From Rhodospirillales bacterium (GTDB taxonomy: Bacteria > Pseudomonadota > Alphaproteobacteria > Rhodospirillales > JAPHRK01), in assembly GCA_026196105.1 (NCBI GenBank), contig JAPHRK010000021.1, positions 1-64,000 on the forward strand: 64,000 bases of DNA, read 5' to 3'. The first letter of the stretch is position 1. Every line of letters begins with the position of its first letter. The notes under the pieces are model-generated. The model did no database searches and was not told where the DNA came from. It worked only from the letters and a program-made list of their open reading frames with translations. Below are positions 227 through 55,651 of the stretch, in pieces. The position numbers and the translations under genes were made by a program.

Positions 227-3097
227 ATGACCATTAATGAGATACCAATTAGAGCCATGAAGAATATTACGGTGCGCGGGGCACGTGAGCATAATTTAAA
301 GAATGTGGATGTAGAAATTCCACGGGATAGTTTGACGGTGGTCACAGGCTTATCAGGGTCAGGTAAATCTTCATTGGCCTTTGATACCATCTATGCCGAA
401 GGCCAGAGACGCTATGTTGAATCTCTGTCAGCCTATGCCCGGCAATTCTTGGAGATGATGCAAAAGCCGGATGTGGACTCCATCGAAGGGTTATCCCCGG
501 CAATTTCCATTGAACAAAAAACCACCTCGCGCAACCCCCGTTCAACCGTGGGCACGGTGACCGAGATTTACGATTACATGCGCTTGTTGTGGGCGCGCAT
601 TGGGGTGCCACATTCCCCTGCAACTGGCCTACCTATTGAAAGTCAGACAGTTTCCCAAATGGTCGACCGAGTGATGGCTATGAAGGAAGGAACTCGACTT
701 TATTTGCTAGCCCCAATCGTGCGCGGGCGCAAAGGGGAATACCGCAAAGAGATGTTGGAGCTTGGCAAAAAAGGTTTCCAGCGTGTCAAGGTTGACGGTG
801 AACTTTATGATATTGATGAAGTTCCTGAACTGAACAAAAAAGTTAAACACAACATCGAAGTGGTGGTTGACCGTTTGGTTCTACGCGAAGACATAGCCGC
901 TCGCCTTGCCGACAGCTTTGAAACAGCTTTAGAGCTTGCCGATGGCCTGGCCCTCATTGAAGATGCTGATAGTGGTGAACAGACTACCTATTCCGCTAAG
1001 TTCGCCTGCCCTGTCTCGGGTTTTACGATTGATGAGATCGAGCCTCGTTTGTTCTCTTTCAACAACCCCTTTGGGGCTTGCCCATCTTGTGACGGCCTCG
1101 GCACCCAAATGTATTTCGATCCTGACTTGGTGGTACCGGATGACCGTTTGCCACTCGGCAAAGGGGTAATTGGCCCCTGGTCAAATTCATCATCTAAATA
1201 CTATCACCAAACCCTGGAATGCCTCGCCACCCACTATGGGCAAAAGATGTCGACTCCTTTTAAAAATCTTCCTGAAAAATTTAAAAAGGTTGTGCTCTTC
1301 GGTTCAGGTAAAGAGTCGATTACTATGCGGTATTCCGACGACAAACGGACCTATGAAGTGGCGAAGCCTTTTGAAGGCGTGATTCCCAATATGGATCGCC
1401 GCTGGAAAGAGACTGATAGCTCGTGGGTTCGTGATGAACTGAGCAAATACCAAACTGTTACCCATTGTGAGTCCTGCTCTGGTCATCGCCTTAAACCAGA
1501 AGCCTTAGCGGTAAAGATTGATGGTTTGCATGTCAGCGAAGCCACCGCAAAATCTATTGATGAAGCTGGAGATTGGTTCGCCGCTCTTGTGGACAAACTC
1601 ACAGAGAAACAAATGGCGATTGCAGACCGTGTTTTGCGAGAGATCAATGAACGTTTGAGCTTCCTACGTAATGTTGGTCTGGATTACCTCACCCTGTCAC
1701 GAAACTCAGGTACTTTGTCTGGTGGTGAAAGCCAACGCATTCGTTTGGCTTCGCAGATCGGCTCAGGTCTCACCGGTGTTCTCTATGTGCTTGATGAACC
1801 TTCCATCGGCTTGCACCAACGAGACAATAATCGTCTGTTAGAAACCCTCAAACGCTTGCGAGATATTGGTAATACAGTGGTTGTGGTTGAGCATGATGAA
1901 GATGCCATTCGCCAAGCAGATTACTTGCTGGATATCGGTCCAGGTGCTGGTATCCATGGAGGTGAGTTGGTCGCAGAGGGTACGCCTGAAGAAGTAATGG
2001 CAAACCCGAACAGCCTTACCGGGCAATATCTTACGGGCATGAAGCAGATTGGAATTCCTTCCGTTCGCCGCAAAGGAAAACGGGGCAAGCAATTAACAGT
2101 CAAAGGTGCTCGCACCAACAACCTAGATAATGTTGACGCCTCAATCCCACTCGGTACATTTACCTGTGTGACCGGGGTTTCGGGTGGTGGCAAATCATCT
2201 TTGATTATCGAGACCCTATATAAAGCGTTGGCACGGCGCTTAAATGGCGCGCGAGTTCATGCCGGGGATCACGACTCCATCAAAGGCGTTGAGTTGATCG
2301 ACAAGATTGTGGATATCGACCAATCCCCTATCGGCCGAACCCCCCGCTCTAACCCCGCGACATATACGGGGGCCTTTACCCCAATCCGTGATTGGTTTGC
2401 TAATCTTCCAGAAGCCAAAGAACGGGGCTACAAACCTGGAAGGTTCTCATTCAACGTCAAAGGGGGACGGTGTGAAGCTTGCCAAGGTGACGGCCTGATC
2501 AAAATCGAAATGCACTTCCTGCCGGATGTTTATGTTCGGTGTGATGTCTGCGAGGGCAAACGCTATAATCGGGAGACCCTAGATATTAAATTCCGAGGAA
2601 AATCCATTGCCGACGTTCTCGACATGACCGTGGAAGAAGGGGTGGAGTTCTTCAAGGCTGTTCCGGCCGTGCGTGACAAGATGGTCGCTTTGCAACAGGT
2701 GGGGCTGAGTTATATCCATTTAGGACAACAGGCAACAACCCTTTCCGGTGGTGAGGCTCAACGGGTTAAGCTTGCCAAAGAGCTTTCCAAGCGCGCCACT
2801 GGGAAGACCCTCTATATTCTCGATGAACCAACGACAGGCCTCCACTTTGAAGATGTTCGTAAGTTGCTGGAAGTTCTGCATACCTTAGTAGAAACCGGGA
2901 ACACAGTCCTGGTGATTGAACATAACCTAGAAGTGATCAAAACAGCTGATTGGATATTAGATTTAGGACCAGGGGGTGGTTCTAAAGGTGGGCGGATCGT
3001 TGCAAAAGGTACCCCAGAAGAAGTCGCTGAAGTGGCAGAGAGCTACACCGGACAATATCTGGCGCCTTACCTTAAAACCCAAAGAAAAAGCGCTTAA
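227..3097 (+). CDS. uvrA: UvrABC excinuclease subunit A
   Basis: DNA damage recognition ATPase of nucleotide excision repair. It acts as a dimer with UvrB to find bulky lesions and hands them to UvrB and UvrC. The 956 residues match the family length. Visible are a first Walker A (GLSGSGKSS), two ABC signatures (SGGESQR and SGGEAQR), a second Walker A (GVSGGGKSS), Walker B motifs ending in LDEP, and the CxxC...CxxC zinc module in the second half (CEACQ...CDVCEG). The first zinc module reads CPVSG, with Ser for the second Cys, a variant I associate with alphaproteobacteria. The start at 227 gives ten extra residues before the usual [16 protein letters not shown]; the ATG at 257 is a credible alternative. 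Transcription is under the LexA box upstream. Confidence 0.98.
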
Positions 3098-3105
3098 GCC
3101 TCAAC

Positions 3106-3191
3106 CGTCATGCCCGGCTTAATCAGGCAGCCAGAGTCAGTGGAAAATGTTTGGGTTTGTAATTCTGGATTCCCGACTGCTCGGGAATGAC
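3106..3191. repeat. REP-like palindromic intergenic repeat
   Basis: The left arm begins CGTCATGCCCGG and the right arm reads TGGATTCCCGACTGCTCGGG followed by AATGAC. The complement of the right arm begins GTCATTCCCGAG, so the ends match as inverted repeats. This is the common alphaproteobacterial GTCATTCCCG/GGAATCCA repeat type. It fills the gap between the convergent uvrA and the 143-residue membrane protein gene and may act as a bidirectional terminator. Only one copy is in the window. Confidence 0.65.
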
Positions 3192-3197
3192 CTGAAC

Positions 3198-3629
3198 TTA
3201 CGCCTCTACCTCTGGTGTTGGCTTGGCCTCAACTTTAAAAGCTGACATGACCACATAGACATTGCCTAGCAGATAGAGGCCGTAAAAAACATAAAGACCG
3301 CCCAAGATCAAAGTCAAAGTGCTTGGATCCATTTCAGGCGGGTTGATGGACTGAATCAAAGATAGGGCAAGGACACCTGAGGCGATGCTGGGGATGGCAG
3401 CAATGCTGACCACAACTTTTGTTGCACCAATTTTTCCTCGATAAGCGACAAAGCCAGCAACACAGTAGAGAAAATGTCCAAGAAATAGAAAGGGAAGACC
3501 ATAATATTGAACAGCGGCGAACCAAGGGCCAATCTGTAATGTACCACTTAAAATCAAAGGAATGGCAACTCCCCAAAAAAAGCAAAACTTTGCGAATCCT
3601 AGGGTGTCTTTAATCATGAAAAGGGGCAC
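3198..3629 (-). CDS. Four-helix membrane protein of unknown function
   Basis: A 143-residue, highly hydrophobic protein with about four membrane helices (roughly residues 10-30, 42-62, 70-92 and 103-128) and a short charged C-terminal tail (KVEAKPTPEVEA). I do not recognise the family. The GTG at 3629 is preferred because AGGA lies eight bases upstream; the ATG at 3617 lacks such a site. It is monocistronic, convergent with uvrA, and separated by 229 bases from the divergent TSUP gene. No catalytic motif is visible. Confidence 0.75.
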   Translation of the reverse strand: MPLFMIKDTLGFAKFCFFWGVAIPLILSGTLQIGPWFAAVQYYGLPFLFLGHFLYCVAGFVAYRGKIGATKVVVSIAAIPSIASGVLALSLIQSINPPEMDPSTLTLILGGLYVFYGLYLLGNVYVVMSAFKVEAKPTPEVEA

Positions 3630-3858
3630 TGTCTTTGTCCTTCGTTTGTTGAATGAACTGACCTATTCTTCTTATGGGGTAAATGTCAAGATAAAGCCTT
3701 TGACCTTATCAATCTCTTTTGTTAGAAGCCTCTAATATTAAAAAGATGAAACCGTCAATTCCTTGAGTTTGAGTAAGCTCTTTATAACTATTCACTCACA
3801 ATGACGCTTCATCAACATCCGCATTATATTTCAAGCTGTTATCGAAAGCCTGCACGCG

Positions 3859-4770
3859 ATGCAAATCTATCTCCCTATTGCCGAGGTTTCGGTAAATGTG
3901 TTCCTGTTGTTGGGCATGGGGGGAGGAGTCGGGTTCCTTTCTGGGCTCTTTGGTGTTGGCGGCGGTTTTTTGATGACCCCTTTGCTGATTTTCATCGGCA
4001 TCCCCTCACCCATCGCTGTTGCAACTGAAGCAAACCAAATTGTTGCTTCCTCAGTCTCTGGCGTTCTGGCCCACTGGCGGCGAGGCAATGTAGATTTCCT
4101 CATGGGAACTATGCTGTTGATCGGTGGTGTCATAGGATCATCTGTAGGTGTTTGGCTCTTTACCTATTTGAAAAGCTTAGGCCAGATCGACTTGGTGATT
4201 AAACTTTCCTATGTAATTTTCTTAGGCATAATTGGTAGCCTCATGTTCATTGAGAGCCTGCGCTCCATGCTCAAAAAGAACTCCCAAGCAGCCCCTAAAC
4301 GCAAAACTCACGGCTGGACCCGCAACCTTCCTTTCAAAATGAGGTTCCGTAAATCACGGCTCTATATTAGCGCCTTGCTCCCCATTGGTATTGGATTCCT
4401 AGTTGGCATCCTCTCAGCCATCATGGGTGTCGGCGGTGGCTTTGTTATGGTTCCAGCGATGATTTACCTTTTGGGCATGCCAACAGCAGTTGTTGTTGGA
4501 ACTTCGCTTTTCCAAATCATCTTCGTGACCGCCAACGTGACAATCCTCCAGGCCGTTAATAACCATGCTGTGGATGTGGTTCTCGCTCTTACCCTCTTGG
4601 TAGGTGCCGTTATTGGGGCTCAATTTGGTGTACGCGCTGGCGCTAAGCTCCATGGTGAACAACTCCGGATTCTCCTGGCACTCATGGTCATAGGTGTTTG
4701 TGTTAAGATTGGCTTTGATCTGGTAGTTCAACCAGATGAGCTCTACTCCCTTGGTGTAGGAGGTCACTGA
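3859..4770 (+). CDS. TSUP-family (TauE/SafE) membrane transporter
   Basis: Predicted inner-membrane permease of the sulfite exporter TauE/SafE family, 303 residues. The two halves carry the family's repeated glycine-rich motifs: GLFGVGGGFLMTP near residue 33 and IMGVGGGFVMVP near residue 193. About eight helices are expected, with a basic cytoplasmic loop (KKNSQAAPKRKTHGWTRN) between the halves. Family members move small organosulfur or sulfite-like anions, but the substrate cannot be told from sequence. The stop overlaps the next start by one base (TGATG), so this gene and the PF09608 gene are translationally coupled. Confidence 0.9.
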   Translation: MQIYLPIAEVSVNVFLLLGMGGGVGFLSGLFGVGGGFLMTPLLIFIGIPSPIAVATEANQIVASSVSGVLAHWRRGNVDFLMGTMLLIGGVIGSSVGVWLFTYLKSLGQIDLVIKLSYVIFLGIIGSLMFIESLRSMLKKNSQAAPKRKTHGWTRNLPFKMRFRKSRLYISALLPIGIGFLVGILSAIMGVGGGFVMVPAMIYLLGMPTAVVVGTSLFQIIFVTANVTILQAVNNHAVDVVLALTLLVGAVIGAQFGVRAGAKLHGEQLRILLALMVIGVCVKIGFDLVVQPDELYSLGVGGH

Positions 4771-5525
4771 TGCGAACACTCATTTCAAGCTTGACCCTCA
4801 CTGTTGGATTGTTATTTAACACCTCCCTTTCCCTGGCCGAAGAGCGCGAACATTTAGTTGTTGACCTCTCTGCTCATCAAGTCGAAATCACAGCAGGATT
4901 CAATGGTGCAGAACTCCTGCTCTTTGGCGCAACTGGTGGCAAAGGAGATGTCGTCGTCGTCGTGCGCGGCCCAACAGAGAGCACCATTGTACGTCGCAAA
5001 GATAAAAAGGGCGGAATTTGGGTTAACGGTGAGAACATGCGCTTTGACAATGTTCCTGGCTTTTACGCCATAGCCGCAACCCGGAAGCTTGATGCCTTCC
5101 TGCCATGGGAACTGGCAAAAGACAAAGAAATTGGCACAGATTTCCTGACCCTTGTCCCTCACAACGGCAAAGGGGATGCAGTAGCCACGCGCAACTTTAG
5201 AGACGCCCTGATCCGGACAAAAAAGAAAGCCGGGCTTTACGCGAATGAAGTCAGTGAGGTTTCTTTTCTCGGCAATCTTTTGTTCCGTACAGATATAAAA
5301 TTTCCAGCCAATGTCCCGGTCGGTAAATATTCTGTTGATGTATACCTCATTCGCGGCTTAGAACTGGTAGAAATTAAGAACACCCCTCTGGTTGTTAAAA
5401 AAATAGGTATAGAGGCAGGTATTTTCTACTTTGCAAAACATCATGCCCTCGCTTACGGTATTTTTGCTGTGCTGATTGCAGCCTTCGCCGGGTGGCTTGC
5501 TGGCGTGATCTTTAAAAAGAAGTAG
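4770..5525 (+). CDS. TIGR02186/PF09608-type membrane-anchored protein
   Basis: A 251-residue protein with an N-terminal signal peptide (residues 1-23, ending near SLAEE), a large extracytoplasmic beta-rich part containing HQVEITAGFNGAELLLFG, and one C-terminal helix (about 228-247) followed by KKK. This is the layout of the alphaproteobacterial family PF09608/TIGR02186. Its function is unknown. It is typically placed next to a TSUP transporter, as here, which suggests a periplasmic partner of that permease. It overlaps the transporter by one base and precedes the stress protein by six. Confidence 0.88.
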   Translation: MRTLISSLTLTVGLLFNTSLSLAEEREHLVVDLSAHQVEITAGFNGAELLLFGATGGKGDVVVVVRGPTESTIVRRKDKKGGIWVNGENMRFDNVPGFYAIAATRKLDAFLPWELAKDKEIGTDFLTLVPHNGKGDAVATRNFRDALIRTKKKAGLYANEVSEVSFLGNLLFRTDIKFPANVPVGKYSVDVYLIRGLELVEIKNTPLVVKKIGIEAGIFYFAKHHALAYGIFAVLIAAFAGWLAGVIFKKK

Positions 5526-5531
5526 GCGCTT

Positions 5532-6029
5532 ATGACTGAACAAGAAATAGACAGCAAAACTCAAGAACCATCACGTACATTTTTGTTAGTAGTAGACAGC
5601 AGCGAAGAATTCAGCAACGCGTTGCGTTTCGTTTGGCGTCGCGCAAAGAAAACCAATGGTCGTGTTGCCTTGCTTTATGTCATTGAACGGGCTGAATTCC
5701 AGCATTGGATTGGCGTGGGCAAAATCATGGAAGAAGAGCGCCGCCAAGAAGCCGAAGAACTTCTCAATGTCATCTCAGCAAATGTGCAGGCGAAAACAGG
5801 AAAAATTCCTCTGATTTTTTTACGGGAAGGCAACCTGAAGGACGAAGTTGTCAAACTCATTGACGAAGAAGATTCAATTTCCGTCCTCGTCCTTGGAGCA
5901 GCAGTTTCTGACGAAGGGCCAGGAAACCTCGTCAGCCACATTACTGGCAATGTCTCAGGTAAACTTCGTGTTCCTGTCACAATCGTTCCTGGCAACTTAA
6001 CTGATGATGAAATCGACGCGATAACTTAG
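5532..6029 (+). CDS. Universal stress protein (UspA family)
   Basis: A single UspA domain of 165 residues. The opening strand TFLLVVDSSEEFSNALRFVW is typical, as are VALLYVIE and the C-terminal VLVLGAA...GNVSGKLRVPVTIVPGN. The Gly/Ser-rich stretch matches the ATP-binding GxxG(9)G(S/T) pattern only loosely (ITGNVSGK), so nucleotide binding is uncertain. It is cytoplasmic. Its close spacing after the TSUP and PF09608 genes places it in the same operon. Confidence 0.9.
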   Translation: MTEQEIDSKTQEPSRTFLLVVDSSEEFSNALRFVWRRAKKTNGRVALLYVIERAEFQHWIGVGKIMEEERRQEAEELLNVISANVQAKTGKIPLIFLREGNLKDEVVKLIDEEDSISVLVLGAAVSDEGPGNLVSHITGNVSGKLRVPVTIVPGNLTDDEIDAIT

Positions 6030-6042
6030 GTTGATTTAAACC

Positions 6043-6744
6043 TTGGTGAAAGAAACAGATTTATATAACCCCGTAAAAGCTCTGCTTGTATCTCGCGGCT
6101 ATCAAGTCAAAGCAGAGATTAATGGTTGCGACATAGTTGCATCTAAAAATGATGTTTCGACAATCATCATCGAACTAAAGCTATCATTTTCTCTTGAACT
6201 CGTTCTTCAAGGAATTAGCCGCCAAAATCTTACCGATGATGTCTATTTAGACGTACTTGCCCCAGACACTTCGATCAAGAGGAAAAACTGGCGAAGCCGC
6301 GAGCGTGGATATATCAAGCTTTGCCGTATGCTCGGATTAGGGTTAATGCTAGTGAGCCCCAAAAAGGAGAGAGGACAGCAAGTAAAAACACTGCTAGATC
6401 CAGTTCCATATTCACCCCGCAAAAGCAAACGACAGCAAACAAGATTAATGACAGAGTTTTCCACCCGTGAAGGCGACCCTAATACGGGAGGCATCAATAG
6501 AACAAAGATCATCACCGCTTATCGACAAGACGCTTTACGTTGCGCGGTTGCCCTAAGTACTCAGAAAAAAATGAAAGTTGCAGAAATTAAAACTGCGACA
6601 GGTGTTATTAGAACCGGATCTATTCTACAAAAAAATTACTACAACTGGTTTGAACGAACAGAGCGTGGAATATATTGCCTCACACCTAGTGGTAAAGAAG
6701 GTTTAAAACTCTATGCGAAAGCCTTACCCACGCTCATAGTTTAA
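6043..6744 (+). CDS. DUF2161 (PD-(D/E)XK-like) protein
   Basis: A 233-residue protein matching the family annotated as DUF2161 domain-containing phosphodiesterase. The N-terminus ETDLYNPVKALLVSRGYQVK leads into GCDIV (Asp about residue 29) and IIELKLS (Glu and Lys about 44 and 46), the spaced acidic and lysine residues of a PD-(D/E)XK nuclease-like core. The C-terminal part looks like a small winged helix (ALRCAVALSTQ...TGSILQKNYYNWFERTERGIYCLT). It starts at TTG 6043 or GTG 6046, both with weak ribosome sites, 13 bases after the stress protein gene. The real substrate is unknown. Confidence 0.8.
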   Translation: MVKETDLYNPVKALLVSRGYQVKAEINGCDIVASKNDVSTIIIELKLSFSLELVLQGISRQNLTDDVYLDVLAPDTSIKRKNWRSRERGYIKLCRMLGLGLMLVSPKKERGQQVKTLLDPVPYSPRKSKRQQTRLMTEFSTREGDPNTGGINRTKIITAYRQDALRCAVALSTQKKMKVAEIKTATGVIRTGSILQKNYYNWFERTERGIYCLTPSGKEGLKLYAKALPTLIV

Positions 6745-6761
6745 TGCCTAACTCAGCTTTT

Positions 6762-6983
6762 TCAGGTCTTTGACCAGAGATATTTAGCCCAAGATATGGC
6801 TTCTTGAGCAGTTTCAAACTCATTAGCCATAACCTTACCATCAATTTCCAAAGACCAACCCTTCACAACTCTATTGATAATGTCTATGACAGGCTTCACC
6901 CTTATTGTTGCTTCTGACAACCTGACTTCCTGAGTGGGATGATTTTGAATAAGCTCTAAAACTGATTTCCGTACCCTAGCCAT
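6762..6983 (-). CDS. Small unknown protein, accessory island
   Basis: A 73-residue basic protein starting MARVRKSVLELIQ, with a central RVKPVIDIINRVVKGWSLEIDGK and an acidic-aromatic tail. Not recognised. The ATG at 6983 lies two bases after the stop of the gene upstream on this strand, so the two are co-transcribed and probably coupled. The open frame extends further upstream, but that part overlaps the neighbour. It is convergent with the DUF2161 gene, 17 bases away. Confidence 0.65.
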   Translation of the reverse strand: MARVRKSVLELIQNHPTQEVRLSEATIRVKPVIDIINRVVKGWSLEIDGKVMANEFETAQEAISWAKYLWSKT

Positions 6984-46608: not shown

Positions 46609-49600
46609 ATGATTCTCCAAAGGGCTTACCTCACAAAAATTATTCTAGCTTTTATCCTCTCTAATCTCTTAGGCATAATTCTCGTTGCGGCCTTCATAAA
46701 TGAAAAGCTAACAGAAATTGCCACCGAGCAATGGGGCTACAAACACCAAGCAATTGCCAGCAACATCGCCGAACACATAGAAGAAACCTTAAACCATGCT
46801 CAAAAGCGTTTAGAACAAACAGCTTCTCGACCTGAGCTTTCCCACCTGCCACATATTTCTCTCATTGATCGAAGCGTTAATGGCCTACCCGTAGGCCTTG
46901 CCCAAGAAACTAGAAGCTTGTTCGATACCTTATTGAAAGGTGAAGATGCTTTCTCCGTTATCTTCCTATTAAAACCAAATGGCGACCACTATATCTCACA
47001 CCCCTTCAGCACTCAGAAAAACCTAAAAAAATACAATCTCTCCGACCGTCCATATTTTAAAGCGGCAACAGAGAGCAAAAAGCCCACGCTCTCTGATAGC
47101 CTTTTGGGTGCAGATGGAATATCTGCAGTCGTAATTGATGTCCCCCTTCTTTCTCCAGAGAAAGAAATTTATGGTCACATTGGTGGTGTCCTTCACCTAC
47201 CTCAACTAAACACACTTATAAAAAAAGCTGTTGAAGGCCCTTTTGATCAATGGGTTTTGTTAGGTAGAAAAAATCAATTAATTTCCGGATGGACCGATGA
47301 TCAATCAATTATTGATCAACATATGGAGCTCATTAAGCAAAGTGTTAAAGGTGTAGAGAAACACAAACCAAGGGGAGCCCTTGCAAAGGACTCTGGCATT
47401 AAAATCCTCAAGGGAAATAAGCAAAATTTTGTTGTAAATGTTACAACCTTAGAACCTGATTGGAAACTCGTTATGATGCGAGGAACCAATACTATTGAGA
47501 GTGCCGTTAGAAAAGATGTCATCGGGGCAACTGCCGTTATTGCCCTCGTACTCTTTATCATTTCAGCAATCAGTATAGTTGTTGTTACGCAAATAGGCAG
47601 ACGATGGAAAGCTGCGGAACAGAATGTCCGTGAAGCAAACAGAAATCTTGAGCAATTAGTTCTAGCCCAAAACTCAAGCCTTAAAGAAGGCGAGCACCGA
47701 TATCATCTATTATTGGATAGCCTTGAGGTTTCAATATGGGAAGAAGATTTTAGTAAGATCTTTTTAGAATTAGAAACCCTTCGCAAAAAAGGCGTTACAG
47801 ATATTCGAGACTATTTTGACAAGAACCCAGACCACGCCTGGCAACTCGCTTCAGCAGTCGAAATTATTAATATCAATGCTGAAACCGTAGAACTCTTCAG
47901 AGCCCCTGACAAAAAAAACTTAATGGGTTCTATCGACAAAACATTCTCAGAGACATCAATAAACCAATTCATTGATGAGCTTTATGCGTTCTGGAACAAG
48001 GAAGAAACTTTTCGCACCGAAAGCGCTCAACTAACATTTGATGGAAAAGAAATTACTGTTCTTATTTCCATGCCCATACCGGCAACCTTGGAAGAAGCCA
48101 GGAGTGTTCCTGTAAGCTTACTTGATATTACTGAACTAAAAAAGAAAGAAGCTGAACTGATTAAAGCTAATCGGGCTTTACAATTATTGAGTGACTGCAG
48201 CTCAATCGTCAACCAGGCAACAAATGAGCAAAAACTTCTCACTGATATATGCAATAGAGTTATTCAAGATGGTAGCTATCCCCTTGCCTGGGTTGGCTTC
48301 AGAGATAATAGCGAAGAAAAAAATATTATCCCTGTAGCAAAATCAGGCAATGGGATTGAGCATTTAGATCAGGTCAAAGTAACTTGGTGTGATGGACAGC
48401 ATGGGCAAGGACCTACAGGGAAAGCAATTAAACAGGGTACCCCGCAAGTAATTAATGACCTTCCTGAGGATGTTGATTTCACACCATGGAAAGAACGCGC
48501 TGCTGAAGTTGGATATCATTCTGTTATTGCCCTTCCTCTCAAGTTGGAATCTGGAGAAATCCTTGGGACATTAACGATCTATGCAGAGCCAACTAATGCC
48601 TTTGATAAGGAAGAGATTAACCTTCTTGCTACATTGGCAGAAACTCTAGCCTTTGGCATTTGGGATATAAGGACCGAGGTTGCCCAGAAAGCTGCTGAAT
48701 CAAAGTTACGGGAAAGCGAAGCCCGTTTCCGTTCAATCTCAAGCTCTTCATCAATCGCAATGATCCTCGCCACTGACAATGAAGGTAATATTATTTCCTG
48801 CAATCCAGCAGCAGAAATAACCTTTGGTTATGCTGCTGACGAAATCATTGGCAAACACTTAACCATACTTATGCCTGAACGTTATCGCCAAAAACATAAC
48901 AACGGATTCAGACGAGCAATCAAAGAACACACCTATAAAATAATTGGGAAAACGGTTGAACTATCCGGGCTCCATAAAGAAGGTCATGAATTTCCAATCG
49001 AGCTTTCACTTGGCATGTGGGAAGAAGATGAGAAAACTTATTTCAGCGGCGTCATACACGATATTTCCGAGCGCAAACAAATGGAGAAAAACCTAATTGT
49101 TGCTCAAAAAATGGAAAGTGTCGGCCAATTATCTGGGGGAATAGCCCATGATTTCAACAATCTCTTAGGAATTATCCAGGGCAATCTTGAACTTATAAAC
49201 TCAATTGCCAAAGACAATGAGCTCATTATCAAAAGAACGGAACCAGCCCTAAGAGCCACCCAACGCGGGGCTGAGCTCACCAAACGCCTCTTAGGTTTTT
49301 CTAGCCGTATTGCCCAAGACACCCATGCAACTTCGCTCAATGAGGTGATCTTACGGACAATCCCACTTGTAGAAAAGTCACTAACCTCTTTAATTAAAAT
49401 TGAATTCGACCTCGTAGACGACCCTTGGTTAACAGATATTGATCCGGGTGATTTTGAAAATGCCATTATTAATTTAGCAATTAATGCAAGAGATGCCATG
49501 AATGGAAACGGTGTATTGACCTTCAAGACGGAGAATAACCACTTATCTGTGGCAGAAGCTGACCTGATCCCGATGGCTGAATCAGGTGATTACGTTGTTG

Positions 49601-50706
49601 TGCATGTTTCTGATGATGGCCTTGGAATGACCCCGCAAGTTGTTGCTCGGATTTTTGAACCATTTTACTCAACCAAAGTTGAAGGCAAAGGTACTGGATT
49701 AGGCCTCAGTATGGTCTATGGTTTTGTCCAACGCTCTGGTGGGTTTATTGACGTTAGTTCAGAAGAAAACATAGGGACAACCTTTAAGGTGTTTCTACCG
49801 AAGTCATCAAAATCTACTGTGGCAAACATTCCTGAAAATATTAATATTTCTAATGACAATGATCTACCAAAAGGCACAGAAATAATCTTGGTTGTTGATG
49901 ACGAGGAGGATTTACTAACCGTAACAGCCGAAGAGTTGATACGACTTGGGTATACGGTTTTAAGAGCGACCAGCGCTGAAGAAGCAAACAAAATCATACA
50001 GAGCGAACAGTCTATTGATTTGTTGCTTTCTGACATAGTCATGCCAGGAAATATGGATGGGTATGGTCTTGCTAATCATGTTATCCGTTATCGGCCAAAT
50101 ATCCGCTTGCTGTTAATGTCCGGCTACACATCCAAGCTGGAAGAAAAAAAGAGTATGTCAGATCCAATTTTAAATTATCTTCTTGATCACTTACTCTCTA
50201 AACCCTTCAAAAAAGAAAATTTAGCTCTTCAGGTAAGAAAAGCTCTAGATTCAAATATTACCATTCCATGGGATGATAATTTTTCAGTCGGCATCAAAGA
50301 AATTGATGAAGATCATCGCGTTCTTATCTCATTGTTAAACAAACTGTTTGCTTGTATAGAAAATAATAGAGAAACTGATCATATTCGGCATGTAATTGAG
50401 GGAGTTGTCGACTATACTAATTATCATTTTGAACGAGAAGAAGCATTAATGGGAGCATGTGACTATCCTCATTTGAATAACCACCGCAAGGTTCATCGGA
50501 TGATGTCTGAGAAAGTAGGGAGACTTGCATCACAGGTTGAAACGAAAAATGATCTGGAATTACTCGGAGAGTTTGTTCAGTACTTGATGTCTTGGCTAAT
50601 AGATCATATTCAGGCAATGGATAAGAGCATAGAACCTTTTGTAGCAGGAAAATCTAAGGAGATCACACAGGCCTTGGAAAATATTAAAAGGCCTGTAAGA
50701 TCATGA
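46609..50706 (+). CDS. Hybrid sensor histidine kinase with C-terminal hemerythrin domain
   Basis: 1365 residues. Order: helix (about 10-30), periplasmic Cache-type sensor (about 35-295, with SDRPYFKAATES), helix (about 303-328), a PAS-like region (365-510), GAF (520-690), PAS (700-815), HisKA with His847 (GGIAHDFNN), HATPase (NLAINARDAMNG, GTGLGLSMVYG), receiver (Asp1097/1098, phospho-acceptor Asp1142), then a bacteriohemerythrin domain. All seven di-iron ligands are present: His1236, His1273, Glu1277, His1292, His1296, His1333, Asp1338. It likely senses an external ligand plus oxygen, NO or redox state. GAGG lies seven bases before the ATG. It overlaps the REC-EAL gene by four bases. Confidence 0.93.
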   Translation: MILQRAYLTKIILAFILSNLLGIILVAAFINEKLTEIATEQWGYKHQAIASNIAEHIEETLNHAQKRLEQTASRPELSHLPHISLIDRSVNGLPVGLAQETRSLFDTLLKGEDAFSVIFLLKPNGDHYISHPFSTQKNLKKYNLSDRPYFKAATESKKPTLSDSLLGADGISAVVIDVPLLSPEKEIYGHIGGVLHLPQLNTLIKKAVEGPFDQWVLLGRKNQLISGWTDDQSIIDQHMELIKQSVKGVEKHKPRGALAKDSGIKILKGNKQNFVVNVTTLEPDWKLVMMRGTNTIESAVRKDVIGATAVIALVLFIISAISIVVVTQIGRRWKAAEQNVREANRNLEQLVLAQNSSLKEGEHRYHLLLDSLEVSIWEEDFSKIFLELETLRKKGVTDIRDYFDKNPDHAWQLASAVEIININAETVELFRAPDKKNLMGSIDKTFSETSINQFIDELYAFWNKEETFRTESAQLTFDGKEITVLISMPIPATLEEARSVPVSLLDITELKKKEAELIKANRALQLLSDCSSIVNQATNEQKLLTDICNRVIQDGSYPLAWVGFRDNSEEKNIIPVAKSGNGIEHLDQVKVTWCDGQHGQGPTGKAIKQGTPQVINDLPEDVDFTPWKERAAEVGYHSVIALPLKLESGEILGTLTIYAEPTNAFDKEEINLLATLAETLAFGIWDIRTEVAQKAAESKLRESEARFRSISSSSSIAMILATDNEGNIISCNPAAEITFGYAADEIIGKHLTILMPERYRQKHNNGFRRAIKEHTYKIIGKTVELSGLHKEGHEFPIELSLGMWEEDEKTYFSGVIHDISERKQMEKNLIVAQKMESVGQLSGGIAHDFNNLLGIIQGNLELINSIAKDNELIIKRTEPALRATQRGAELTKRLLGFSSRIAQDTHATSLNEVILRTIPLVEKSLTSLIKIEFDLVDDPWLTDIDPGDFENAIINLAINARDAMNGNGVLTFKTENNHLSVAEADLIPMAESGDYVVVHVSDDGLGMTPQVVARIFEPFYSTKVEGKGTGLGLSMVYGFVQRSGGFIDVSSEENIGTTFKVFLPKSSKSTVANIPENINISNDNDLPKGTEIILVVDDEEDLLTVTAEELIRLGYTVLRATSAEEANKIIQSEQSIDLLLSDIVMPGNMDGYGLANHVIRYRPNIRLLLMSGYTSKLEEKKSMSDPILNYLLDHLLSKPFKKENLALQVRKALDSNITIPWDDNFSVGIKEIDEDHRVLISLLNKLFACIENNRETDHIRHVIEGVVDYTNYHFEREEALMGACDYPHLNNHRKVHRMMSEKVGRLASQVETKNDLELLGEFVQYLMSWLIDHIQAMDKSIEPFVAGKSKEITQALENIKRPVRS

Positions 50707-51938
50707 ATATGGGTTTAACAGATAACAACAATACAACTGAAGGTGATTATCGAACAATTCTTGTTGTCGATGATGAGCCTGATGTTTGTGAATACGTAAC
50801 AATAGTCGCAGAAGGTGTGGGGTTTGAAGCAACTTCAATAACCGACGGGCGAAGCTTTGCTTCATCATATTCAAGGCATTTTGATTGTATCGTTCTTGAT
50901 TTAACCATGCCCGGCATGGATGGTATTGAGCTAATTCGTTTTCTTGCTGACAACAAAAGTTCAGCCTCAATTATTCTTATGAGTGGTGTCGACTCAACAA
51001 TTTTGCATTCTGCAGAACAATTAGCAAAGCATCACGGCCTCAACATTGTTGGCGCTTTAAAAAAACCCGTATCAGTTGATGACTTAGAAAAGCACCTCGA
51101 AAGAGTACCGCACGCCCATTCACAGATAGCAGCCCCTTTTAGAAAGACTAACGCCCCTATCGTAGACGGGCCTACTGAAACGGAACTAAGGGAAGCGATT
51201 GCTAACAAGCAACTCCTGCTTCACTACCAACCAAAAATTAATATGTCTGATGGCTCCCTCGCCGGCGTTGAAGCTTTGGTGAGATGGCAGCACCCAGAAA
51301 AAGGTATGATTCCCCCTATCGCTTTTATTCCCTTAGCGGAAGAAACAGGTCTCATTGAAGAGCTAACCACCCAAGTTACTGAAATGGCCATTGAGCAATG
51401 TGCTGAATGGCTAAGGCAGGGGGAACGAATTAAAGTTGCTTTCAATATGTCAGCAAAAAGCCTAACAGATTTAGATTTCCCAGATCACGTTTGGGAAGCT
51501 GCGAAGGAAAGAGGGATCGACCCATCTCTTGTCGCTGTCGAATTAACCGAGACCGCTATTGTCACCGAGCTTAATCGTTCTCTTGATATTCTCACTCGGC
51601 TTCGCATGAAAGGCTTCCATCTTGCCATTGATGATTTTGGCACCGGCTATTCTTCCATGCAGCAATTACAGAACCTTCCCTTTGACGAATTAAAAATCGA
51701 TCAGTCATTTGTTAAAAATGCCGCGAATGATGAAGAGGCCCGAAAGATCATCGAATCAACAGTTGAACTAGGGCATAAATTAAATATGGAAGTTGTTGTT
51801 GAAGGCATTGAAGATAAAGAGCTATGGGATGTGCTTCGTGATTGTGGTTGCAACCAAGCCCAAGGCTTTTGGATGGCTCGGCCAATGCCAGCAGGAGATA
51901 TCCTCAAATGGCGCGATGAGTGGAAACTTGAAGAATAA
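50703..51938 (+). CDS. Response regulator with EAL c-di-GMP phosphodiesterase domain
   Basis: 411 residues. Receiver (about 18-135): acidic pair Asp23/Asp24, phospho-acceptor Asp66 (VLDLTMPGMDG), Lys near 117 (LKKPV). EAL domain (about 160-405): the EAL motif (GVEALVRW), FNMSA, ELTET, DDFGTGYSS, ELKIDQSF, VVEGIE and QGFWMARP are all intact, so it should hydrolyse c-di-GMP. Translational coupling (ATGA) with the hemerythrin kinase marks it as that kinase's output. Confidence 0.95.
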   Translation: MNMGLTDNNNTTEGDYRTILVVDDEPDVCEYVTIVAEGVGFEATSITDGRSFASSYSRHFDCIVLDLTMPGMDGIELIRFLADNKSSASIILMSGVDSTILHSAEQLAKHHGLNIVGALKKPVSVDDLEKHLERVPHAHSQIAAPFRKTNAPIVDGPTETELREAIANKQLLLHYQPKINMSDGSLAGVEALVRWQHPEKGMIPPIAFIPLAEETGLIEELTTQVTEMAIEQCAEWLRQGERIKVAFNMSAKSLTDLDFPDHVWEAAKERGIDPSLVAVELTETAIVTELNRSLDILTRLRMKGFHLAIDDFGTGYSSMQQLQNLPFDELKIDQSFVKNAANDEEARKIIESTVELGHKLNMEVVVEGIEDKELWDVLRDCGCNQAQGFWMARPMPAGDILKWRDEWKLEE

Positions 51939-54463: not shown

Positions 54464-55651
54464 TTAATCCGTAAATTGCCCTAAAACGTAATCCATGAAG
54501 TAAGGAGCATAAACACGGCGTTCTGATCTTGTGCGCCCCATGCTTTTAATAAAGCCTTGCTTAATCTCTTCACTCATCTCAACGGGGTAGGTATAGGCTG
54601 CCCAAACAGCAATGAGATCACCTGTGTGAAAATGGAGATCTCGAGCAAGTTTGCAGAGGTAATCTCGTGATGACCCTTCTCGCCCCCCAGCATGAGACTC
54701 TTGTTCTAAAACTTGCTGAATGCCAACCACACCGCTACGGATTTTACTTATCTCAAAATTAAAGATGTCTCTGAATAACAAGTAATCGGCAGGTTTTGGT
54801 GGAAGGTATTCCCCTCCGGCTGGTTCCTCACAGAGGAAATCCCAAAATTCATTAAACGCGGACCTCTTTTCTTTGCCAGAACCCGCAATAGATTTAAAAC
54901 CAAGTTCCCAATAATTTTTACTTGGATTAGCCCCTTCATGATTAAACTTACTGCGTAGATATTCTTCTGCTTCAGATGGGCGAGGAAGGCTTGCGACCAA
55001 AGCTTGGATGGCCTTTTTACCCAACATCCATGGGATAATATGTTTATAAATTCCCTGAGTGAACCGCTCACCAAAAACAGGTGACAAAAAGAAAGGAAGT
55101 GTTTGATCATTGTCTGGATCAATAATATGCAGTGGAGCAAGCCTTTGCCATACATGACGCCCATAAGCCTTGGTAAAAATCTCGACTGACTCAGGATCAA
55201 GCTTAACATCTGAAGGAAGTTTAATTTTCGGAGGCTCTGGGGGTTTATGGTCAAATTTGCGCCGTTTTAAAGCGAACTCCATGGTTTTTTGCAGTCCCAT
55301 GGCTTTTTTCTGTGCATACATTTTAAATTCACGGTCTTGGAACTTAATACATTGCTCCAAAATCTGCATGAAAAAGCCAACATCCTTGATCATATCATCC
55401 GGAATATCACGGAAAGCGGCATAATCACGTAATAGACCATTGGCGGTGGTAAATGTCGCATCAAGTAGGTCAACAAGCTCTTCTTTGCTGGTATCCGGGC
55501 GCAACCTTGCTAATTGGAGGACACGCTCTTTAAGCATCTCCCCCTGAACATCCTCAAACCCCGTATCTGAAGCTAATTCTTCAAGGTCAACATCCTTAAT
55601 CGAATCTGCTAGAGCGAGTTCAAGATCCAACTCAATATCGTCACCGGCCAT
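54464..55651 (-). CDS. Unknown 395-residue soluble protein
   Basis: No signal peptide, membrane helix or known catalytic motif. The first 35 residues are very acidic (DDIELDLELALADSIKDVDLEEL). A helical part (about 45-130) follows, then a basic Pro-rich hinge (KRRKFDHKPPEPPKIKLP) and a mixed C-terminal domain rich in aromatics (SKNYWELGFKSIAG, SAFNEFWDFLCEEPAGGEYLPPKPADYL). I do not recognise the family. Codon use and frame length leave little doubt it is real. It lies 120 bases downstream of the formate dehydrogenase genes on the same strand, so it could be read from that operon. Confidence 0.75.
   Translation of the reverse strand: MAGDDIELDLELALADSIKDVDLEELASDTGFEDVQGEMLKERVLQLARLRPDTSKEELVDLLDATFTTANGLLRDYAAFRDIPDDMIKDVGFFMQILEQCIKFQDREFKMYAQKKAMGLQKTMEFALKRRKFDHKPPEPPKIKLPSDVKLDPESVEIFTKAYGRHVWQRLAPLHIIDPDNDQTLPFFLSPVFGERFTQGIYKHIIPWMLGKKAIQALVASLPRPSEAEEYLRSKFNHEGANPSKNYWELGFKSIAGSGKEKRSAFNEFWDFLCEEPAGGEYLPPKPADYLLFRDIFNFEISKIRSGVVGIQQVLEQESHAGGREGSSRDYLCKLARDLHFHTGDLIAVWAAYTYPVEMSEEIKQGFIKSMGRTRSERRVYAPYFMDYVLGQFTD

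Follow-up and report, generated by a model that had tools for sequence, protein, structure and literature searches.

A hybrid histidine kinase that ends in a hemerythrin (Hr) domain is encoded, together with an overlapping gene for a receiver-EAL (REC-EAL) protein, in the window, the 64,000-nucleotide stretch of DNA analysed here, and kinases with the same kinase-REC-Hr core recur beside REC-EAL genes in other genomes. We propose, giving the proposal an even chance, that the two genes specify a two-component unit controlling a c-di-GMP phosphodiesterase, and that a hemerythrin, fused to the kinase once, trims the output of this unit according to redox or O2 state.

The kinase, its hemerythrin tail and the REC-EAL protein

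The two genes and the domains of the kinase are as follows.

46609..50706, + strand: hybrid histidine kinase with C-terminal hemerythrin, 1365 aa (ORF; Pfam/NCBIfam domains)
46636..47590, + strand: N-terminal transmembrane and predicted extracytoplasmic Cache-like sensor region, aa ~10-327 (dCache_1, 35.7 bits; hydrophobic segments)
48220..48660, + strand: GAF domain, aa 538-684 (Pfam GAF_2, 74.7 bits)
48757..49071, + strand: PAS domain, aa 717-821 (Pfam PAS_9, 58.8 bits)
49123..49803, + strand: HisKA-HATPase kinase core, aa 839-1065, phospho-acceptor H847 (Pfam, motif positions, CckA-like models)
49885..50232, + strand: receiver domain, aa 1093-1208, phospho-acceptor D1142 (Pfam Response_reg, 51.4 bits)
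50263..50643, + strand: hemerythrin domain, aa 1219-1345 (PF01814, 51.4 bits; NF033749, 113.8 bits)
50703..51938, + strand: REC-EAL c-di-GMP phosphodiesterase, 411 aa (EAL, 252.3 bits; Response_reg, 61 bits)

The larger protein combines the features of a hybrid histidine kinase, namely an H-box, an ATP-binding domain and a fused receiver with a phospho-acceptor aspartate. Counting only Pfam domains above curated cut-offs, we found GAF_2, PAS_9, HATPase_c (aa 946-1065, 67.3 bits), Response_reg and Hemerythrin; residues ~350-530 had no Pfam match. The dCache_1 match lies under its Pfam cut-off (35.7 versus 45 bits), and hydrophobic segments, identified by eye, flank the Cache-like region on both sides. 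HisKA is likewise under its cut-off (21.9 versus 26.9 bits), but the H-box GIAHDFNN, which contains H847, and the N and G boxes are all present. CckA-like kinase models of NCBIfam span the kinase core; the CckA cell-cycle kinase models NF046020 and NF046026 scored 308.5 and 259.2 bits, below their curated cut-off of 1000. The domain order of Cache, PAS/GAF, kinase core and receiver given in an earlier note on this DNA thus holds overall, with Cache and HisKA at sub-cut-off scores and with a single PAS domain backed by Pfam instead of several. Behind the receiver, the hemerythrin sits where unorthodox kinases of the RocS1/RcsC type, RocS1 itself included, carry an Hpt domain.

The same note had read the C-terminus as a hemerythrin with all seven di-iron ligands (five His, E1277 and D1338), and this was borne out by both profiles and residues. 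Pfam Hemerythrin (PF01814) matches aa 1228-1344 with 51.4 bits (cut-off 25.3), and the NCBIfam bacteriohemerythrin model (NF033749) scores 113.8 bits (cut-off 84). The seven ligands, H1236, H1273, E1277, H1292, H1296, H1333 and D1338, follow the pattern H-HxxxE-HxxxH-HxxxxD, which, together with a profile score over cut-off, marks the domain as a bacterial hemerythrin. REC-Hr was modelled over 281 residues from a six-row alignment (mean pLDDT 83.7). The model has a receiver and, after it, four long helices, and the ligands are predicted to distribute 1/2/2/2 over helices A/B/C/D, matching the hemerythrin arrangement. By sequence match, the nearest solved relative of the domain is DcrH-Hr (2avk, E 2.4e-14); a fold search with the REC-Hr model found mainly receivers and added no information about the Hr to this match.

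The start of the REC-EAL gene overlaps the kinase stop by 4 nt (ATGA). Open reading frames, Pfam scores and catalytic residues agree with the earlier description of a four-base overlap and of a receiver fused to a fully conserved EAL domain: the receiver residues, including the phospho-acceptor D66, are intact, and E190, N248, E280, D310, D311, K331, E367 and Q387 of the EAL domain are all present. Across the four intact partners, D66 and these eight EAL residues are invariant. Judged from these residues, the predicted output of the unit is an EAL phosphodiesterase with an intact catalytic site. Its nearest full-length solved relative is RocR (3sy8). The PvrR model NF052596 covers almost the whole protein, which is of similar build but is not the PvrR equivalog (299.5 bits versus a curated cut-off of 580). 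Across the genome there are about six strong EAL matches, this protein among them.

Recurrence of the pair and origin of the tail

The earlier note had suggested a domain search (Hemerythrin, Response_reg, EAL) and a neighbourhood search for the same pair; besides confirming the domains, our searches found the pair in other genomes. Searches with REC-Hr profiles covered 60 close relatives, 385 genomes of the class, 317 of the order, 15 of another order and 399 of the phylum, these genome sets overlapping. The larger searches scored the best few candidates per genome, and the resulting count, at least six kinase-REC-Hr proteins in five genomes (overlapping sets of 15 to 399 genomes), is a lower bound. 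The six are the window protein, a paralogue in the same genome (C54, locus L043) and one protein each in G051 (L044), G643 (L179), G251 (L079) and G343 (L080). Their sensor ends vary (dCache-GAF-PAS in the window kinase, PilJ-PAS or PAS-PAS elsewhere, the PilJ type being found in relatives), and the kinase-REC-Hr core is kept.

A REC-EAL partner or its remains lies beside five of the six loci, in either gene order. It is downstream in the window and directly downstream in G251 and G343, directly upstream in G643 (34 bases before the kinase), and reduced to a deleted remnant downstream of the kinase in G051, where the start of a receiver runs in one frame into the C-terminal ~45 residues of EAL. 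The paralogue (876 aa) has two PAS domains, an intact iron site and no EAL neighbour. Taken together, these neighbourhoods indicate that the pairing with REC-EAL is more than a local accident, being rare and recurring in other bacterial families, and their conservation supports the view that the kinase and REC-EAL genes form a unit. A scan for promoters and terminators added no information on this point. In G051 (contig C120, L044, 4400-5177) the pair is apparently decaying, as Hr is frameshifted and REC-EAL lacks an internal segment, deleted in frame; an assembly error is a possible cause.

The earlier note had called it unusual for a hemerythrin to follow the receiver in a hybrid kinase. The rarity of this arrangement in our searches agrees with the note, but the chimeras themselves are not new: a 2008 count listed four Hr proteins with histidine-kinase domains and four with CheY-like domains, and found the C-terminal position of Hr to be the commoner one among chimeras (PMC2556348). 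Two further candidates were rejected. A wider contig census used search patterns that fell in the receiver, so that most of its 80 loci held ordinary hybrid kinases, and L083 (Gammaproteobacteria), the sole candidate from it reaching residue 231, has no Hr in its ORF. L180 (G583), tried as a spanning REC-Hr protein, is actually two genes, one for a stand-alone Hr and the other for a REC.

With the REC-EAL partner as the query, we read 42 neighbourhoods and found 25 loci in which a related hybrid kinase lies near the REC-EAL gene, mostly adjoining it and on the same strand in 23. None of these 25 kinases carries Hr, and 24 have at most 49 residues after the receiver. The four intact REC-EAL proteins that accompany Hr-tailed kinases fall into a single clade of the REC-EAL tree (support 94/90), and its sister comprises the partners of the un-tailed kinases L213 and L214 (91/91). 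On the kinase tree, one change is enough to account for the Hr-tailed kinases, with weak support (43/86). The simplest reading of these trees is that a hemerythrin was fused a single time onto a pre-existing, common hybrid-kinase/REC-EAL pair. Given that the clade of partners is sister to Hr-less pairs, the Hr appears to have been added to a two-component module that is common in Alphaproteobacteria. Un-tailed alphaproteobacterial pairs such as L213, L228, L231 and L236 share with the window the kinase core family and a REC-EAL partner, mostly adjacent and on the same strand, but their kinases stop after the receiver and have no hemerythrin. At L231 (G206:C81), a divergent stand-alone hemerythrin gene (2102-2617) lies about 225 bases from an un-tailed pair (2842-5541 and 5465-6772), possibly the same link between Hr and the pair in unfused form, in this one case.

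Retention and loss of the iron site

All seven ligands are kept in three of the six kinase-REC-Hr proteins, those of the window, the paralogue and G643. The other three have substitutions at ligand positions: D to R in G251, D to R together with H to Q in G343, and two His changes, one to R and one to Y, in G051. With ligands lost in half of the Hr tails, the iron site is not a conserved requirement of the unit, and to this extent the mechanism in the earlier note is not supported as stated. Because G251 and G343 belong to one genus, the ligands were lost in two lineages, not three. Between these two proteins, for which we compared identities and dN since dN/dS was saturated for several domains, Hr, at 56% identity, is conserved less than any other domain (71-79%), as would be expected under relaxed constraint.

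Such losses may also be explained by a pair that is a genuine control unit in which Hr serves mainly as a structural or docking four-helix tail, its iron dispensable, and the Cache, GAF and PAS domains do the sensing. Consistent with this, G251 and G343 keep an intact REC-EAL and a full-length Hr despite their lost ligands, and the frequency of loss among the tails is high compared with the other Hr domains at hand, 39 of 41 of which have all seven ligands. However, the window protein, the paralogue and G643 have kept the seven ligands at an Hr identity of 34-41%, a pattern difficult to account for unless the metal site is under selection, and the losses are confined to two lineages in which Hr evolves fast, like a decaying domain. 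We regard a mainly structural or docking tail as unlikely, though the strongest of the alternatives. Our reading of the ligand patterns is that an iron-dependent function would be real in the lineage of the window and dispensable elsewhere, which is not proof of sensing; redox or O2 tuning by the window Hr is plausible, as a property of this protein and not as a conserved requirement of the pair. For NO, which the earlier note had named beside oxygen, our analysis found no evidence of sensing by the Hr that goes further than general analogy.

Proposed signal flow and related systems

The gene pair, its intact active-site residues, the conserved neighbourhood and the single clade of partners are observed; phosphotransfer between the kinase and REC-EAL, iron binding, redox dependence and the sign of the effect are inferred. 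In the proposed sequence of events, the variable membrane and cytoplasmic sensors would set autophosphorylation at H847, from which the phosphoryl group would pass to D1142 of the fused receiver and then to D66 of REC-EAL, directly or via a separate phosphotransfer protein; phosphorylated D66 would alter c-di-GMP hydrolysis, the lowering of c-di-GMP that the earlier note inferred being one possible direction. The C-terminal Hr would bind two irons and change shape on oxidation by O2 or a shift in redox state, and this change would tip the adjacent receiver towards draining phosphoryl groups or towards returning them. The net effect would be a trimming of phosphodiesterase output by respiratory or redox state. 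The specific route, in which a non-heme di-iron sensor behind the receiver gates a two-receiver phosphoryl flow to EAL and disappeared or became inactive in some lineages that kept the pair, is offered tentatively, at somewhat less than an even chance. Against this favoured explanation of the pair counts the paralogue, with its intact iron site and no EAL neighbour.

The genome encodes a ChpT-type phosphotransferase and stand-alone Hpt candidates, and an indirect path of phosphotransfer is therefore possible. Transfer from the adjacent kinase to REC-EAL is not to be assumed, given that PvrR of Pseudomonas aeruginosa interacted with neither sensor, PvrS included, and worked without its phospho-acceptor aspartate (PMC3842833); on the other hand, HnoK does phosphorylate HnoB, an example of a kinase that answers to a gas sensor and switches a phosphodiesterase through a linked receiver (PMC8846402). 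The kinase and REC-EAL might accordingly be co-expressed while the phosphate goes elsewhere, for example by way of ChpT to other regulators, and REC-EAL acts unphosphorylated in the manner of PvrR. The CckA-like kinase core and the phosphotransfer proteins of the genome would suit such a separation, but the recurring neighbourhood in either gene order, the matching clade structure of the partners and the intact receiver residues of REC-EAL favour a direct link, and we consider separate outputs improbable. Most improbable by far is a relay through Hr itself in place of the Hpt domain of RocS1- or RcsC-like kinases: Hr is at the same position and likewise a helical bundle, and sensors with C-terminal Hpt work with REC-EAL regulators in the Roc and Rcs networks (PMC3842833, partly general knowledge), but Pfam finds no Hpt match in the kinase, the sole His invariant in all six proteins, H1296, is an iron ligand expected to be buried, leaving no conserved non-ligand His, and the un-tailed kinases, whose pairs evidently work tail-less, likewise lack Hpt, 24 of 25 being too short after the receiver to hold one.

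Among known systems, PvrS/PvrR and RocS1/RocR of P. aeruginosa resemble the pair in the window in that a hybrid or unorthodox kinase is connected, as a neighbour or within a network, to a REC-EAL phosphodiesterase, but they contain no hemerythrin, and PvrR appears to be phosphorylation-independent (PMC3842833). In HnoX-HnoK-HnoB of Shewanella, an iron-based gas sensor sets the flow from a kinase to the receiver of a c-di-GMP phosphodiesterase, as in the proposed unit (PMC8846402); HnoX, however, is a separate, NO-specific heme protein, whereas the window has a predicted non-heme di-iron domain fused behind the kinase receiver. H-NOX was not found among the scanned window genes that neighbour the pair (MCP, PadR-like, cytochrome c, AMP-binding, one Pfam-less and NuoEF-like proteins). 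The known c-di-GMP-linked hemerythrin sensors, Bhr-DGC (Vibrio cholerae) and Bhr-HD-GYP (Ferrovum), respond to O2 or redox state (PMC9388753, PMC8846402), so that c-di-GMP metabolism comes under redox control through the hemerythrin (PMC9388753). In both, Hr is fused at the N-terminus of the enzyme, whereas in the window the coupling would run through a two-component pair to an EAL-type enzyme. DcrH of Desulfovibrio vulgaris shares with the window kinase a C-terminal Hr on a membrane receptor, but has a chemotaxis output (MCP) and no kinase or receiver in the protein. According to a 2022 review, none of the Hr sensor phosphodiesterases found by then was of the EAL type (PMC9388753), and in open-access full text, judged by title and abstract, we found no paper studying a hemerythrin-bearing hybrid histidine kinase. 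If our proposal is true, two-component control joins the small set of hemerythrin-c-di-GMP links, with the first EAL-type case. The pair, which occurs with complete and with eroded iron sites and has un-tailed sisters, also offers a natural comparison for what a metal sensor does when placed after a receiver.

Hemerythrin matches in the genome total 16, and the Hr-tailed proteins are of several output kinds (two MCPs and an HD-GYP protein), which suggests that the cell may use Hr as a signalling input. The HD-GYP protein (G000:C46, L045:1928-3514) is a GAF-HD-GYP protein with C-terminal hemerythrin, a second hemerythrin-c-di-GMP link in the same genome, whose domain order is reversed relative to Ferrovum Bhr-HD-GYP. 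The MCPs with C-terminal hemerythrin (G000:C65, L046:6574-8967, and G000:C16, L048:3145-5589) are DcrH-like. Within the window, a 395-aa protein with no Pfam match is encoded at 54464-55651 on the - strand, beside a formate-dehydrogenase-like operon. Elsewhere in the genome, an 870-aa protein (G000:C7, L047:7953-10565) joins a metallo-beta-lactamase fold, a cyclic-nucleotide-binding domain and a C-terminal hemerythrin, an unusual combination.
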